This document shows positions 4,389 through 57,631 of a DNA stretch of 64,000 nt, in pieces. The position numbers and the translations under genes are program-made. The stretch is taken from positions 1-64,000 of the forward strand of contig NZ_FNIE01000021.1 in NCBI RefSeq assembly GCF_900103985.1, in the 5' to 3' direction. The DNA comes from Actinacidiphila guanduensis (GTDB lineage: Bacteria; Actinomycetota; Actinomycetes; Streptomycetales; Streptomycetaceae). Position 1 is the first letter of the stretch, and each line of letters starts with the position of its first letter. Below the pieces are notes generated by a model. That model saw nothing but the letters and a program-made list of their open reading frames with translations, had not been told where the DNA came from and did not search any database.

Positions 4389-4982
4389 ATGAGCCAGCCG
4401 CCGGAGCACCAGCCAGAAGCCGCCGCACCGCAGCCGTCGCCCGAAGCCGCCCGCGAGCAGGGGCTGTTGTCGGTCGACGAGGTCATCGACATCGTGGACG
4501 AGCACGACAACGTCGTCGGCACCTCGCCCCGCGGCGAGGCGTACGCGCGCGGCCTGCGCCACCGCTGCGCGTTCATCCTCGCCCGCGACGCCGAGGACCG
4601 GATCTTCGTCCACCGCCGCACCGCCCGCAAGCTCGTCTTCCCCTCGATGTACGACATGTTCGTCGGCGGCGTGGTCGGCGCCGGCGAGTCCTACGACGAG
4701 ACGGCGCTGCGCGAGGCCGAGGAGGAGCTGGGCGTCAGCGGACTCCCCCAGCCCACCCGGCTGTTCACCTTCCTGTACGAGGACGCCACCGGGCGCGGCT
4801 CGTGGTGGTCGGCGGTCTACGAGGTGCGCTGCGAGCTGCCGGTGCGGCCGCAGGCGGAGGAGGTGGCCTGGCACGCCTTCCTCACCGAGGAGGAGCTCAC
4901 GGCCCGGCTGGAGGAGTGGCCCTGGGTGCCGGACGGGCTGGCGGCGTACCGCAGGCTGCGGGAGCTGCGCGGGCCGCGCTGA
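4389..4982 (+). CDS. Nudix hydrolase, YfcD-like
   Basis: A 197-residue protein with a complete Nudix box at residues 94-116: G-x5-E-x7-REAEEELGV, including the three metal-binding glutamates. The region around it (VDEVIDIVDEHDNVVG at 29-44, then an HRCAFIL strand) resembles the YfcD/isopentenyl-diphosphate-isomerase-like Nudix subgroup. The substrate is probably a nucleoside diphosphate derivative, but this cannot be read from sequence. The first 24 residues are Pro/Glu/Ala-rich and look like a flexible tail. The ATG at 4389 is divergent from AtuA with a 183-base gap. It precedes two DUF202 genes on the same strand by 87 bases and may form a loose transcription unit with them. Confidence 0.9.
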   Translation: MSQPPEHQPEAAAPQPSPEAAREQGLLSVDEVIDIVDEHDNVVGTSPRGEAYARGLRHRCAFILARDAEDRIFVHRRTARKLVFPSMYDMFVGGVVGAGESYDETALREAEEELGVSGLPQPTRLFTFLYEDATGRGSWWSAVYEVRCELPVRPQAEEVAWHAFLTEEELTARLEEWPWVPDGLAAYRRLRELRGPR

Positions 4983-5069
4983 TGGGCCGGGGTGCCGGGG
5001 GCCTGCGGCCCGGCGTGGCGGGGCCGGGCTGCGCGGCCGCGGCCGGAAGGCGCTGGTTAGGGTGGCCCC

Positions 5070-5483
5070 GTGAGTGGTTTCGGGCGGCTGCGGGCGGCGC
5101 GGGAGTCGGTGGGGCTCTGGTTCGCGCCCGAACGGGTCCGCAGCGAGGGCACCACGCCCGATTACCGTTTCTCGCTCGCCAACGAGCGCACCTTCCTCGC
5201 CTGGATCCGCACCGCCCTCGCCCTGATCGGCGGCGGCTTCGCGGTGGACCAGTTCCTCACCGACCACCTCACCCAGTGGGTGCGGGCCGCCCTCGCGCTC
5301 GCCCTGCTGGCCGGCGGCGTCCTGTGCTGCCTGCGGGCGGTCAACCACTGGGTGCGCTCCGAGCGCGCCATACGGCTGGGCCGCAGCCTGCCCGCCTCCC
5401 GCTTCCCGGCGCTGCTCGCGGTGCTGGTGGCGGTGCTCGGCCTCGCGATGGTGGTCGTGGTCGTCTTCGGCTGGGCCGGATGA
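5070..5483 (+). CDS. YidH/DUF202 family membrane protein
   Basis: A 137-residue inner membrane protein. The DUF202 signature is the segment FSLANERTFLAWIRTALALI at about residues 34-53, followed by three hydrophobic helices (about 46-65, 72-90 and 112-135). Function is unknown for the family (E. coli YidH). The GTG at 5070 is the only start that keeps the N-terminal cytoplasmic segment. It overlaps the next DUF202 gene by an ATGA junction (5480-5483), so the two are translationally coupled and probably form a hetero-oligomer. Confidence 0.85.
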   Translation: MSGFGRLRAARESVGLWFAPERVRSEGTTPDYRFSLANERTFLAWIRTALALIGGGFAVDQFLTDHLTQWVRAALALALLAGGVLCCLRAVNHWVRSERAIRLGRSLPASRFPALLAVLVAVLGLAMVVVVVFGWAG

Positions 5484-5839
5484 GCGGTACGGAGCCCGGC
5501 GGGCCCCGCCCGGCCGTCGAGACCGACCGCGACCCGGGGCTCCAGCCCGAGCGCACCCGCCTGGCCTGGCGCCGTACCACGCTGTCCTGGGCGGTGGCCG
5601 GGGTGCTCGCGGTGCGGCAGGCGCTGCGGGCCGACGACAGCGCGGTCGGCGGGATCGCGGTGGGGCTGGCCGCCTTCGGCTTCCTGGGCATCCTCGTCCT
5701 GGCCCACCGCCGCCTGACGGGCCTGGACCCCGCCCGCCCCGAAGCGCTGCCGAACCGCTGGGCCGTGGCGGCGGCGGCCTGCACGCTCCTGCTCGCGCTG
5801 TGCGGCGCCGCCCTGGTGTGGTGGGGCAGCACGGGCTGA
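5480..5839 (+). CDS. DUF202 family membrane protein, second subunit
   Basis: A 119-residue membrane protein starting at the ATG that overlaps the stop of the upstream DUF202 gene. It has the shortened signature PERTRLAWRRTTLSWAVAG near residues 24-42 and three predicted helices (about 35-50, 56-75 and 95-115). Paired DUF202 genes, one YidH-like and one shorter YidG-like, are a recurring arrangement. E. coli yidG/yidH is the reference pair, and neither has an assigned biochemical role. Confidence 0.8.
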   Translation: MSGTEPGGPRPAVETDRDPGLQPERTRLAWRRTTLSWAVAGVLAVRQALRADDSAVGGIAVGLAAFGFLGILVLAHRRLTGLDPARPEALPNRWAVAAAACTLLLALCGAALVWWGSTG

Positions 5840-5960: not shown

Positions 5961-6024
5961 ACCCGACAGGCCCACTCCCCCCGAGCCGAACCCAACCGAG
6001 CCCGGCTCCCACAGCCGCCCCCTC

Positions 6025-6759
6025 CTACGGCGCCAGGATGTCCAGTTCGCGCAGCGCCCCCACGCAGATCTCCCGCATCAGGTCCTCCGCCGCCCGGGCG
6101 TCGCGGGCGCGGACGGCCTCGGCGACGCGGACGTGGAGGGTGACGGCTTCCGGGTCGGGCGCGGTGAACATCACATGGTGCTCGGTGCGCCCGGTGAGCA
6201 CTTCGGCGACCACGTCGCCGAGCCGGGCGAACATCTCGTTGCCGGAGGCGTCGAGGACGACCCGGTGGAAGGCGATGTCGTGCACGAGGTACGCGGCGAG
6301 GTCGGCGGCCCGGGCGGCGGCGGCCATCTCGGCGGCGAGCACGGTGAGTTCACGGCACTGCTCGGGGGTGGCCGCCTCGGCGGCGAGCCCAGCGGCCACC
6401 GGTTCGACGGCCGTGCGCAGGGTCGTCAGGGACCGCAGTTGCCGGGAGCGGTCGGCGCCGGCCAGCCGCCAGCGGATCACCGCGGGGTCGAAGACGTTCC
6501 ACTCCTCGGTACGGCGGACGGTGACACCCACCCGCCGCCTGGACTCCACCAGGTGCATGGCCTCCAGGACCCGTACGGCCTCGCGCACGACCGTCCGGGA
6601 GACGCCGTAGCGGGCTTCGAGCTCGTCGATGCGCAGCACCGTGCCCGGCGGGTGCTCGCCCGAGGCGATGGCGGGGCCGAGTTCGGCCAGGACCTTCGAG
6701 TGCAGACCGCCGCCCGCCTCCGCGGCCCCCGCCCCACGCGGACTGTCGTGATCGGACAT
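6025..6759 (-). CDS. gntR: FadR-type GntR regulator of gluconate genes
   Basis: A 244-residue regulator. The N-terminal winged helix-turn-helix spans roughly residues 18-85, with the recognition helix in LEARYGVSRTVVREAVRVLE. A C-terminal all-helical FCD ligand domain follows (about 100-230) with its spaced His/Asp/Glu metal and ligand residues (VHDIAFHRVVLDASGN). The regulator is divergent from gluconokinase and permease, so by standard GntR logic it should repress them until gluconate or a phosphorylated derivative binds. The AT-rich 187-base gap between them holds candidate operators. The ATG at 6759 is the natural start. The symbol is assigned from context. Confidence 0.85.
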   Translation of the reverse strand: MSDHDSPRGAGAAEAGGGLHSKVLAELGPAIASGEHPPGTVLRIDELEARYGVSRTVVREAVRVLEAMHLVESRRRVGVTVRRTEEWNVFDPAVIRWRLAGADRSRQLRSLTTLRTAVEPVAAGLAAEAATPEQCRELTVLAAEMAAAARAADLAAYLVHDIAFHRVVLDASGNEMFARLGDVVAEVLTGRTEHHVMFTAPDPEAVTLHVRVAEAVRARDARAAEDLMREICVGALRELDILAP

Positions 6760-6814
6760 GGGCCAAGCCTAAGAGAACCGGAAAGCCGGACACGCCGGCT
6801 CACCTCACCACCAC

Positions 6815-6862
6815 TTGTATGACTATTAGGTCACAACCTCTTGAATAAGTATTACCAATAGG
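6815..6862. promoter_or_regulatory. Divergent gntR/gntK control region
   Basis: This is one of the few AT-rich segments in the window. It contains TGAC-N6-GTCA at 6820-6833 (flanked by TTGT and ACAA at 6815-6836) and the near-palindrome AATAAGTATT at 6844-6853. Either could be the operator of the FadR-type regulator, and -10-like hexamers occur on both strands. Exact promoter elements could not be fixed by eye. Confidence 0.5.
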
Positions 6863-6946
6863 TGTTCAGTGGTCGCCACGCCGCCGGTCCCGGCTCCCCC
6901 GTACGAGACCGGCGGCGCCCATCCGCAGCTGCAAGGAGGCAGGGCA

Positions 6947-7459
6947 ATGACGGCCGCGTCGAAGACACCACCGGTGGTCGTGGTCATGGGAGTCTCCGGC
7001 TCCGGCAAGTCCACCGTGGGCGGCCTGCTCGCCGAGCGCCTGGGCGTCCCCTACGCCGAGGCCGACGACTTCCACCCGGCGGCCAACATCGCCAAGATGT
7101 CCGCCGGGCACCCGCTGGACGACGCGGACCGGGCGCCCTGGCTGGACGCCATCGCCGAGTGGATCGCGGCGCACGAGGGCCACGGCGGCGTCGTCAGCTG
7201 CTCGGCGCTGCGCCGCCGCTACCGGGACCGGCTGCGCGAGGCGGCGCCGGACCTGTTCTTCCTCCACCTGGACGGCCCGCAGGAGCTGATCGCCGCCCGA
7301 CTGGCCGCCCGCATGCAGCACTTCATGCCCTCGGGGCTGCTCGGCTCCCAACTCGACGCGCTGGAACGGCTGGAGCCCGACGAGTCCGGCGCCGTGGTGT
7401 CCATCGAGGGCGGCCCCCAGCAGATCGCCGAGCGCGCCCTGGCCCTCCTGCCCGACTGA
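6947..7459 (+). CDS. gntK: Gluconokinase
   Basis: A 170-residue gluconokinase of the P-loop (GntK/IdnK) family that phosphorylates gluconate to 6-phosphogluconate for the pentose phosphate pathway. The Walker A motif GVSGSGKST is at residues 15-23. Family motifs AEADDFHPAANIAKM and SCSALRRRYRDRLR follow, with the LID and substrate segment near FMPSGLLGSQ. Length fits the usual 165-180. The ATG at 6947 was chosen over an in-frame GTG at 6869 because AAGGAGG sits 7 bases upstream and the P-loop then falls at the normal distance from the N-terminus. It is followed by gntP. Confidence 0.95.
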   Translation: MTAASKTPPVVVVMGVSGSGKSTVGGLLAERLGVPYAEADDFHPAANIAKMSAGHPLDDADRAPWLDAIAEWIAAHEGHGGVVSCSALRRRYRDRLREAAPDLFFLHLDGPQELIAARLAARMQHFMPSGLLGSQLDALERLEPDESGAVVSIEGGPQQIAERALALLPD

Positions 7460-54796: not shown

Positions 54797-55549
54797 TCAG
54801 CTGGTGAGAACGGCGCGCTCCCCTGCTTCGAGGGCGATGGGAAGGGTGTTGCCAGGGGGCGGGAAGGGACAGACGAAGGCGTCGGCGAAGGCGCACGGCG
54901 GGAGTTGGGTCCGGTTGAGGTCGAGCAGGAGCGAGCCGTCCGGGGCGGGCCGGGGCGCGTAGAGGAAGCGGAACCGGAAGCTGGTCGTGCCACTGGTGGC
55001 GTCGGCGAGGACGGCCCAGAGCCGACCGTCCTCCTGGACGGCAGCCGAAAGGGTGAGGGCGGTGCCGTCGAGGGCGAAGGCGAGCTCGCCGTCGAGGCCC
55101 AGACCGCGCTCGCGGCCGTCGTGGTTGGGCACCCGGACAGTGCGCTCGGCACCGTAGGGGTGGAAGACGGCGGGCACGGTCCAGCGCTCGCTCCAGTCGA
55201 AGGCGTCGATGCCCGCGAAGGACCGGCGGGCCGGGGCCTGGGGGTCCCAGACACGGATCGCGAGCAGGCCCTCGCGGTCGATGGCGAGCACCTTGACGCC
55301 GTCGGGCAGCAGCAGGGGGCGGCCCTCGGTCTCCAGGGCGGCGGCCACGCCGTCGGTCTCGTGCACCACGGCGCCGTTCTCCTGCCGCCACACACCGGGC
55401 AGGCCGGGGATCAGGCCGTCGGCGAGGTCGGCCAGCCAGTAGGTGCCGGTGAGCGCGAGGGGGCCGTGCGGGGCGGACACCGAGGCGGCGCGACGCTCGC
55501 GCCAGCGGTCCCAGTGGGCGCGGGGGCCGGCGGCGATTCCGGTACTCAT
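54797..55549 (-). CDS. DUF1684 family protein
   Basis: A 250-residue protein of the DUF1684 family, function unknown. Family motifs: an N-terminal LTGTYWLADLADG, RFLYAPRPAPDGSLLLDLNR, and the C-terminal PPCAFADAFVCPFPPPGNTLPI. The family forms a beta-rich fold, and homologues occur widely in Actinobacteria and Bacteroidetes. It lies 66 bases downstream of the DUF5685 gene on the same strand and is likely in the same transcription unit. Confidence 0.85.
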   Translation of the reverse strand: MSTGIAAGPRAHWDRWRERRAASVSAPHGPLALTGTYWLADLADGLIPGLPGVWRQENGAVVHETDGVAAALETEGRPLLLPDGVKVLAIDREGLLAIRVWDPQAPARRSFAGIDAFDWSERWTVPAVFHPYGAERTVRVPNHDGRERGLGLDGELAFALDGTALTLSAAVQEDGRLWAVLADATSGTTSFRFRFLYAPRPAPDGSLLLDLNRTQLPPCAFADAFVCPFPPPGNTLPIALEAGERAVLTS

Positions 55550-55615: not shown

Positions 55616-56860
55616 TCAGCAGCCGCAGTCGCAGTCGCAGCAGTCGCACCCGTCGCAGTCCCCGCAGCACTGGCAGCAGTCACCGCATCCGTCGCACCCG
55701 TCGCAGTCGCAGGCGCTGCACCACGCCTCGCGGCGCTGCCCGGTCCAGGGGTCGTCGTGGTCGGTGCAGCACAGCCGGCAGGTGCAGCACAGTCCGGCGT
55801 AGACGAGGCAGCCGGGCAGCAGGCCGCGTCGGCGCGGGGGTTCGGGCGGGGGGAAGCCGCCGGGGCCGAAGGGGTTGCCCGTGCCGCCCGGGTTCTGCGC
55901 GGGGGCGCCCGGCGCGTAGGGGTTGCCGCCGTACGGGTTGCCGCCCGAGGCGTTGCCCTCGTACGGGCGCTGGTCCGAGGCCGAGTGGGAGCAGGTGCCG
56001 GCGCCGAACGCCCGGTCGACGGATCGCTGGAGTTCGTGGACGAGCAGCGTGTGAGTGAGGCGGGCCGCGGCGGAGCCGGCGAACTCCACCTCGCGCAGGG
56101 CGAGGCGTATGCCGTGGCGGGCGTCGTCGCACAGCCGCCGGGCCTCGCCGAGGTCGGTGCCGATAACGGTGAGCGGGTTCCAGGCTCCGGTGCGGGTGTC
56201 CTCGGCCAGGTCCTCGACCGCGTCGAGCAGGTGGGCGAGCCGGCCGAAAAGCCGGCCGACCTCGGCGAGCGGTTGGGCGTTGCCGGGGCGGCCGGCGAGC
56301 ACCGCGGTGTGCGCGAAGGCCGCCGCGGTGGCGGTCTCGGTGGGTTCGGTGACGGTCAGGACGCCGGTGCCCGGTCCGGCCGCGGCCTCCAACTCGCCCT
56401 GCCGGCCGACGGCGTCGACCAGGACCGCGGTGTCGAAGCCCAGGGAGCCACCGGTGCGGGCGCCGGCGACGTCCCAGCGGCGGGCCACCGTGCGGGCGGC
56501 GAGCGCGACGGGCCGCCGGCCGAACACCCCGTCGCCGTCCTGGACATGGTCGCGCATCTTCGCCGAGGCAAGCACCAGGGAGACGGCGGCGGCCAGGCGC
56601 GCGCCCTCACCGGTGGCCACGGAGGCGCCGCGCATCCCGCGCAACGGGCAGGGCCCGGCCTTGCGGTGGCCGGTGGCGGAGGGGGCCGACTGGGCCTCGG
56701 TGAGGACGGAGACGATGAGACCGTCGTAGTTGGTGGCGACGCGGGCGAACTGCCCGTGCCCGTCGCGCAGGGCCAGGCACAGCCCGCACAGGTGCGCCAG
56801 CCAGGAGGCCGCCATGCCCTCGGACATGCGGTGGCGGCAGGGTCTGATGATCCCGAACAC
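55616..56860 (-). CDS. DUF5685 family protein with cysteine-rich tail
   Basis: A 414-residue protein. The DUF5685 domain is at about residues 1-285 (FGIIRPCRHRMSEGMAASWL, HLCGLCLALRDGHGQFAR, TNYDGLIVSVLTEAQ, EVGRLFGRLAHLLDAVEDLAED), with the early C-x-H-R and C-x2-C pairs, and is followed by a Gly/Asn/Pro linker. The last 66 or so residues contain 22 cysteines (many CDC, DCC and GDC units), a possible metal-binding or redox knob. The family is associated with regulation or lantibiotic-like peptides in Streptomyces; function unknown. GTG at 56860 was chosen to begin with FGIIRPCRHR. Confidence 0.8.
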   Translation of the reverse strand: MFGIIRPCRHRMSEGMAASWLAHLCGLCLALRDGHGQFARVATNYDGLIVSVLTEAQSAPSATGHRKAGPCPLRGMRGASVATGEGARLAAAVSLVLASAKMRDHVQDGDGVFGRRPVALAARTVARRWDVAGARTGGSLGFDTAVLVDAVGRQGELEAAAGPGTGVLTVTEPTETATAAAFAHTAVLAGRPGNAQPLAEVGRLFGRLAHLLDAVEDLAEDTRTGAWNPLTVIGTDLGEARRLCDDARHGIRLALREVEFAGSAAARLTHTLLVHELQRSVDRAFGAGTCSHSASDQRPYEGNASGGNPYGGNPYAPGAPAQNPGGTGNPFGPGGFPPPEPPRRRGLLPGCLVYAGLCCTCRLCCTDHDDPWTGQRREAWCSACDCDGCDGCGDCCQCCGDCDGCDCCDCDCGC

Positions 56861-57187
56861 GACTGCATTCCCCCCGATCACCGCACCGGCTCCGAGTTGT
56901 GACCGGCGGTCAGGTTTCGGCCGTGCGCCAGCGGTCATGTTATCGGCGCGGCGCAAGGGCGCCGTAGGGCCGTACGGCCGCGGTTATCACCCGATCGTGG
57001 AGGACGTTCCCATCGCCTCGTCAGCTCTCCAGGGCCTGCCCCTGCTTGACGGTGCGCCACTATCGTGTGTGCCAGTACCGTCACAACTCGCCCTCAGGGC
57101 GACTTTCCCCTTGGCGCATCACCCTCATCATGGATGACGATAGGACTAAGCGGACGGTACCGACCGCGTGCGAGAGAGGAGGCGTCC
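56861..57187. other. Divergent promoter gap
   Basis: A 327-base gap between the DUF5685 gene and sepF paralog. TTGACG at 57046 lacks a -10 at usual spacing. No gene with an RBS was found other than the SepF paralog start. Repeats and palindromes are not striking. Confidence 0.4.
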
Positions 57188-57631
57188 ATGGGTTCGGTTC
57201 GACGGGCGAGTGCCTGGCTGGGCCTCGTCGACGACAACGGCGGCGAGGGTTACTACGACGAGGAGTACGCCGACTACGGCGATGGTCCGGCGCGCCCCGA
57301 CACCTGGGTGACCGACCCGCGGGTGCGGGTGGCCGCCGAGTCGGCGGAGGAGGAGGGCCGCCGTATCGCCACGGTGACGCCCGACGGCTTCCGTGACGCC
57401 CGCGGTATCGGCGAGCTGTTCCGCGACGGGGTGCCGGTGATCGTCAACCTCACCGCGATGGAGTCCGCCGACGCCAAGCGCGTGGTGGACTTCGCCGCCG
57501 GCCTCACCTTCGGTCTGCGCGGCTCCATCGAGCGGGTGGCCAACCGGGTCTTCCTGCTGACTCCGGCGGACTACTCGGTGATGAACGCCGACGCCCACCG
57601 CGGCGGCGACGGCTTCTTCAACCAGAGCTGA
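57188..57631 (+). CDS. sflA: SepF-like cell division protein
   Basis: A 147-residue SepF paralog. The N-terminal amphipathic helix ([20 protein letters not shown]) and acidic [13 protein letters not shown] precede the SepF core ([68 protein letters not shown]). SepF bundles FtsZ and anchors it to membrane. Streptomyces has three copies; this non-dcw locus copy resembles SflA. It would act at branching or division. ATG at 57188 has a strong AGAGGAGG. The symbol is assigned by synteny from memory. Confidence 0.85.

Follow-up and report, generated by a model that had tools for sequence, protein, structure and literature searches.

The DUF5685 protein encoded by Actinacidiphila guanduensis combines a conserved, two-part cysteine-rich tail with a domain that is predicted to adopt a class I isoprenoid-synthase fold, a placement of the family that is new here and comes from structural models. 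Since DUF5685 is tailed in Streptomyces, and a cysteine-rich string is found on a J-domain partner elsewhere, the domain is accompanied by such a string in cis or in trans. Tentatively, and with a little less than even confidence, we read the protein as an isoprenoid-synthase-fold DUF5685 protein with a zinc-type site, a hydrophobic cysteine anchor and a metal-thiolate tail, the anchor and tail together being the counterpart of the string on the J protein. A likely fold, predicted motifs of an active site and a partner can thereby be assigned to a widely kept family of unknown function.

Reading frame, conservation and anatomy of the tail

The window analysed here is the whole stretch of 64,000 nucleotides from positions 1 to 64,000 of the forward strand of contig NZ_FNIE01000021.1 (A. 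guanduensis, GCF_900103985.1). The open reading frame (55616..56860, reverse strand) encodes 414 amino acids and runs from a GTG start at 56860, preceded upstream by a ribosome-binding-like GGGGGG stretch, to a stop at 55616. Its product contains 28 cysteines, 22 of which fall in the last 66 residues, exactly as counted in the first-pass annotation, and no second stop-free stretch of 66 residues with at least 15 cysteines was found in the six frames of the whole 64-kb window. The DUF5685 assignment made at that stage was borne out by Pfam (PF18937, residues 1–235, E 1.5e-20, 74.1 bits against a gathering cut-off of 26.7), and the protein represents the single DUF5685 match in the 8.2-Mb source genome. 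It had no match in NCBIfam or PADLOC, and the Pfam scan detected no J domain in it. Third-position GC was 0.95 both in the first 300 codons and in the tail, and all cysteine codons were TGC; the frame is therefore continuous, and the earlier statement that codon use does not suggest a frame error agrees with these values.

The closest relatives of the window protein are mostly from Actinacidiphila. All 79 relatives obtained from genome contigs were tailed, with 15–24 cysteines in the last 66 residues, and because the tail had served as one of the six patterns by which they were recruited, a search with the Pfam domain alone was made. DUF5685 was thereby matched in 79 of 101 Streptomycetaceae genomes, the source genome counted. 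Conservation in homologues had been one of the checks proposed in the first-pass annotation. Apart from the source genome, 78 Streptomycetaceae genomes contributed 79 loci to the domain-only search, and at 74 of these the last 66 residues held at least 12 cysteines. Among the five loci below this number, one meets a contig end (L083), one has a frame that runs on (L087), one contains N (L090), one has another tail (L092) and one is cut to 123 aa (L175). The L092 protein (1501-2859) is a second DUF5685 copy of genome G080, with a Gly/Ser-rich tail and 10 cysteines in the last 66 residues, and the same genome also holds a tailed copy (L139). The expectation that DUF5685 proteins vary at the C-terminus thus held for length and exact order, but not for the high cysteine content, which is steady in most relatives.

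The pooled Actinomycete set comprised 169 rows (149 distinct, 144 with at least 12 cysteines), pattern-recruited rows included. L127, a partial tail-less frame from the phylum search (E 5.2e-6), was left out of the pooled counts, six coriobacterial rows were left out of the pooled tail and invariant-residue counts, and a second, equal DUF5685 match in G031 was not among the loci counted. Viral contigs yielded no confirmed DUF5685 relatives.

The tail is preceded by a linker rich in Gly, Asn, Pro and Tyr (residues 291–345; 55826..55990, reverse strand), matching the Gly/Asn/Pro linker described earlier, which is predicted to be disordered to residue 331 (pLDDT < 50 at 291–331). It leads into a conserved hydrophobic cysteine module (residues 346–381; 55718..55825, reverse strand), delimited in an alignment of 14 chosen rows (A2). 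This module of approximately 36 residues has a consensus of the type GCxVWxGLxCTCQxCC...DPWxxxRRxxxC, with a mean hydropathy of 1.53 for residues 346–365 and, in the AlphaFold model, a helix at 347–359 within a block of pLDDT 75–87. The distal Cys/Asp/Gly tail (residues 382–414; 55619..55717, reverse strand) ends in C-x-C and has pLDDT < 50 at 385–414. The distal-tail set, from which L083, L087, L090, L092, L175, L127 and six coriobacterial rows were left out, comprised 164 rows with duplicates counted, and in 163 of them this part spans 16–67 residues with 8–28 cysteines; the exception, L117, lacks the module. The composition of the distal part in this set was 45% Cys, 19% Asp, 15% Gly and 0.6% His, and the number of cysteines grew with tail length (r 0.83).

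The order of residues was likewise biased. In the last 36 residues of the 144 distinct sequences, CxC (863 observed vs 528 shuffled) and CxxC (530 vs 297) exceeded their shuffled counts, CC fell below (594 vs 922) and CCC was avoided (30 vs 370), while C-x-C formed the tail end in 109 of 144 sequences compared to a shuffle mean of 15. Across 552 close pairs, cysteine was retained at 0.70 vs 0.52 with shuffled tails and aspartate at 0.48 vs 0.29; the alignment in this test rewards matches, so that the informative quantity is the gap to the shuffled tails. The order bias and close-pair retention would fit selection for the arrangement of thiols, as in metal-thiolate tails. A functionless artefact, arising from a low-complexity GACTGC repeat or a frame error, would account for the simple codon set (TGC, GAC and GGN), but was rejected as practically inconceivable in view of the in-frame GC3, the presence of the tail at 74/79 loci and a cysteine retention above that of shuffled tails.

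When the source genome was searched with the tail module, the present gene scored best (E 1.2e-21) among the 150 of 418 candidates scored, the next reaching E 0.42 and 1.46. Two outlying Actinomycetes keep the Cys/Asp end, with the hydrophobic module absent in L117 and, by eye, weakened in L247 (5001-6008), and the two parts of the tail may therefore be lost separately. Membership of CYSTM (PF12734) was rejected: the family was absent in five rescanned DUF5685 proteins, and the matches in 2 of 60 members (best E 1.1e-5) were taken as a composition effect.

Predicted fold, aspartate motifs and cysteine site

The DUF5685 domain (residues 1–288; 55997..56860, reverse strand) was modelled with AlphaFold on an alignment of 60 sequences chosen for diversity (A1), giving pLDDT >= 90 at 251 of 414 residues, nearly all within residues 1–285. 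The top Foldseek match of this model was the prenyltransferase MoeN5 (E 6.7e-5), followed by isoprenyl diphosphate synthases, with modest TM-scores for the top matches (0.38–0.40 by query, 0.47–0.59 by target, rmsd 6–6.5), and VIA-align superposed it on 4jxy over 243 residues (Z 21.8, rmsd 2.7). The coriobacterial protein L113, which is tail-less, was modelled as well (alignment A3, pLDDT 92); this model had MoeN5 as its sole Foldseek match below 0.001 (E 8.3e-4) and aligned to 4jxy with Z 18.4. For both models, the 50 VIA-align matches listed were isoprenoid synthases, one of them (9a4c) an HEPS2-ACP complex.

Agreement with the models came from HMMER, where the A1 profile matched the polyprenyl synthetase 4lob (E 2.3e-4) with both Asp-rich motifs in register. 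The first motif, DHVQD (residues 104–108; 56537..56551, reverse strand), pairs with HDDVVD of 4lob, and the second, DAVEDLAEDTRTGAWNP (residues 213–229; 56174..56224, reverse strand), with IDDILD; no counterpart of the KT lysine of IPPS was seen in this one weak alignment. Among the invariant columns of A1 are C25, C28, C71, D104, D108, D213, D217, D221, N228 and P229. The five aspartates, N228 and P229 were invariant in 146/146 distinct Actinomycete proteins, a count that left out L127, L174, L175 and L176 (cut or partial) and six coriobacterial rows, and the coriobacterial rows carried LD[DN]xxD and DAxxDxxxD in 17/17 cases. DUF5685 thus resembles the trans-isoprenyl diphosphate synthases (PF00348) and MoeN5 in predicted fold and in two Asp-rich motifs in register. 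It differs from them in the first motif (DHxxD in Actinomycetes, whereas Coriobacteriia have LDDxxD or LDNxxD), in having DAxxDxxxD...NP in place of DDxxD as the second, in the additional cysteine site and cysteine tail, in the lack of a Pfam match to PF00348 and possibly in the KT lysine.

None of 60 DUF5685 members matched PF00348 at E <= 1, and none matched PF00494 at that threshold. Profile-profile comparison, in which secondary structure was unused and the controls were reversed and column-shuffled, scored 25.2 (all DUF5685), 26.6 (coriobacterial) and 16.7 (Streptomyces-type alone) against PF00348, and 20.3, 18.8 and 17.6, respectively, against PF00494, compared to controls reaching 16.6, 19.7 and 19.1. 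The Streptomyces-type set alone accordingly did no better than its controls, and the PF00494 scores were at or near control level. The corresponding probabilities against PF00348 were weak (3.6 % for all DUF5685, 5.9 % for the coriobacterial set), and PF00348 and PF00494, known superfamily mates, reached just 22 % against each other. As these profile-profile scores are weak, it is the models together with the HMMER match that support the fold.

A putative zinc site is formed by C8 (56837-56839), C25 (56786-56788), C28 (56777-56779) and C71 (56648-56650; all reverse strand), four cysteines that were invariant in 146/146 distinct Actinomycete proteins. In the coriobacterial rows, Cys was never found at position 8 (15/15 rows reaching it) and the third Cys was part of CxxH in 17/17 (17 of 18 genomes aligned); in the same alignment, nine Actinomycete rows had Cys at position 8 and Arg at the place of the coriobacterial His. 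We read the differences at these two positions as a swap of the fourth ligand of the putative site.

Cysteine-rich J-domain partners of tail-less DUF5685 proteins

DUF5685 was present in 18 of 197 Coriobacteriia genomes and was tail-less in all 18, with 0–1 cysteines in the last 66 residues. In 16 of these genomes, the gene is directly followed by a J-domain gene whose product has 5–9 cysteines in its last 45 residues, as exemplified by the cysteine-rich end LCCGIWCCGPALCRMC. The remaining two, from one genus, hold a string J gene that is unlinked, with 8 cysteines in the last 45 residues (L279, L280). J-domain proteins were surveyed in 12 genomes of Coriobacteriia. Six of them have DUF5685, including both with the unlinked gene, and six lack it, the latter picked before their J proteins were seen. 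Of 47 matches, 46 were examined, one weak match in G165 being left out. A string J protein was found in 6/6 genomes with DUF5685 vs 0/6 without, in plain counts ignoring ancestry, and none of the 21 J-domain matches from the six genomes lacking DUF5685 was of this kind.

The combination of a tail-less DUF5685 protein and a string J protein was also seen in 2/2 Clostridia, Pusillibacter and Subdoligranulum. In Pusillibacter, the J gene lies directly after DUF5685 and its product has a DnaJ domain (E 3.4e-18) and 7 cysteines in the last 45 residues, while ispD and ispF are found approximately 4 kb upstream of the pair, a gene run suggestive of an isoprenoid link. The J protein of Subdoligranulum (J domain E 2.8e-11 with the coriobacterial profile) has 9 cysteines, and in linker and string it looks very similar to the tail of the Streptomyces-type proteins. 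The Pusillibacter pair resides on a plasmid (L245 1-10810) within a housekeeping-like run of genes (ispD, ispF, cdaA, gmk, rpoZ and priA), which is odd for a plasmid.

In the source genome, none of the four J-domain matches bears a cysteine tail, and a search of at most 6 kb on either side of the 79 Streptomyces-type loci found no J gene. The strings of the J proteins are of the same general type as the Streptomyces tail, both being cysteine-rich, C-terminal and placed after a Gly/Pro/Asn-type linker, and the tail looks like the string of the J partner in cis. A cysteine string on a chaperone partner in some gut bacteria hints at an undescribed two-part system; no publication on J-domain proteins with a cysteine-string motif, or on bacterial ones with a prenyl link, was found in the open-licence literature. 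At one coriobacterial locus (L227 2380-6289), genes for a MarR-type regulator, DUF5685, the J protein and Hsp70 lie in a row on one strand.

Possible functions and gene neighbourhood

In the arrangement that we favour, the N-terminal ~285 residues would form a class I isoprenoid-synthase fold keeping both metal-binding Asp motifs, and we infer that it may bind prenyl diphosphates. This domain would include a four-ligand structural zinc-type site, Cys4 in the present protein and probably Cys3His in Coriobacteriia. The flexible linker would join it to a two-part cysteine module, whose short hydrophobic segment probably docks on the membrane or on the domain, and whose disordered CxC/CxxC/Asp tail most likely forms thiolate clusters with soft metal ions (Zn or Cu). 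As a whole, the module would be the functional counterpart of the cysteine-rich J-protein string found beside tail-less DUF5685.

A simpler view, taken in the first-pass annotation, is that of a metallothionein-like metal store fused to a domain serving only as a carrier. Metallothioneins are small free proteins of very high cysteine content with CxC and CxxC. The window tail shares with them the cysteine richness, the CxC/CxxC clusters and a distal part without a stable predicted fold, but is an Asp-rich C-terminal tail with a hydrophobic module on a 414-aa protein whose domain is confidently modelled. SlyD-type tails, which are flexible, His-rich and nickel-linked metal-binding ends on an enzyme, resemble it as a flexible Cys/Asp-containing end, though not in the scarce histidine of its distal part. 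What stands of the store is a kept tail with a metal-thiolate-like pattern, plausible distally, and its Cys/Asp-rich, order-biased and disordered character, as well as a variable length with which the cysteine number rises, would suit such a role. Nevertheless, the tail has two parts and a module conserved beyond the needs of a store, and the domain, placed in a predicted isoprenoid-synthase fold, carries invariant catalytic-type residues. Since the comparable cysteine-rich string on a J protein elsewhere is also unpredicted by a store, the simple version is incomplete, and we consider it unlikely, if still a serious candidate. The domain could instead be a pseudo-enzyme, acting as a non-catalytic adaptor of protein homeostasis with Hsp70 and J proteins, in which the cysteine module switches client or membrane binding in response to redox state or zinc. 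The Hsp70 gene that comes next after the J gene at two loci of Coriobacteriia is in line with this, as is the divergent sepF-like cell-division gene found upstream of DUF5685 at 77 of 79 Streptomyces-type loci; however, invariance of both Asp motifs is unusual in a pseudo-enzyme and the 79 Streptomyces-type loci are devoid of a J gene, making the adaptor improbable.

A further explanation is S-prenylation, whereby the domain would attach prenyl groups to the string's cysteines, in cis in Streptomycetaceae or on the J partner in Coriobacteriia and Clostridia, for membrane anchoring. In eukaryotes, farnesylated and string-cysteine J proteins, such as DNAJC5 (cysteine-string protein), are membrane-anchored and combine a J domain with a cysteine-rich lipid-anchoring end. 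This architecture of J domain and cysteine string in one chain is found in the coriobacterial and clostridial partners, not in the window protein. The predicted fold with invariant Asp motifs, the presence of a cysteine string alongside the domain in almost every genome examined and the excess of C-x-C tail ends argue for S-prenylation, and precedent is given by the isoprenoid-synthase-like peptide prenyltransferases ComQ, ChrPC and PalQ (PMC13290415). ComQ, PalQ and the P domain of ChrPC are like DUF5685 in possibly pairing an isoprenoid-synthase fold with a peptide or protein acceptor, but they modify Trp, as does every characterised enzyme of the ComQ/PalQ class according to the same text (PMC13290415), whereas the candidate acceptor here is cysteine-rich. 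The trans-IDS-like peptide prenyltransferases moreover have in common a Gln just ahead of the second Asp motif, as stated there (PMC13290415); this residue is His in 146/146 Actinomycete and Tyr in 17/17 coriobacterial rows, and DUF5685 was for that reason not classed with the Trp-prenylating enzymes. A tail of approximately 16 cysteines rich in Asp would also be an odd lipidation target, and the C-x-C ending may be inherited, so that S-prenylation appears highly doubtful; should it be true, which we give only a slim chance, it would constitute an undescribed bacterial protein-lipidation system parallel to the eukaryotic J proteins. More generally, a domain acting on prenyl diphosphates would leave two roles for the string: it could be the product site, implying bacterial protein prenylation by a new enzyme class, or a metal- or membrane-related device linked to isoprenoid metabolism.

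The sepF-like gene next to the window gene (57065..57631, forward strand; Pfam SepF E 6.5e-23) was taken as the longest open reading frame, its true start perhaps lying inside, and is presumably SepF2. The two exceptions to the divergent arrangement are L018 and L073, and the link was not found in any of the seven other Actinomycete loci examined (L018, L229-L231, L247-L249). In Antrihabitans sp. YC2-6 (L018), tandem DUF5685 genes (4707-5756 and 6001-7143) occur with the sepF-like neighbour absent. SepF2 of S. venezuelae is described as a divisome component (PMC8748795). The window gene is not named in the passages of the WhiA and BldC papers that were read, though it may be covered there by a locus tag, and DUF5685 appears as a superfamily listed in C. 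difficile in one publication; no publication on SCO1748, or on SCO1749 with SepF, was found in the open-licence literature. No match to a Zur box consensus was found in the window, an upstream alignment of 12 loci revealed no clear common operator beside the DUF5685 gene, and a promoter and terminator scan found nothing. Downstream of the DUF5685 gene and on the same strand, a DUF1684 gene lies at 54797-55549 of the window, and such a gene is present in 28 of the 79 loci.
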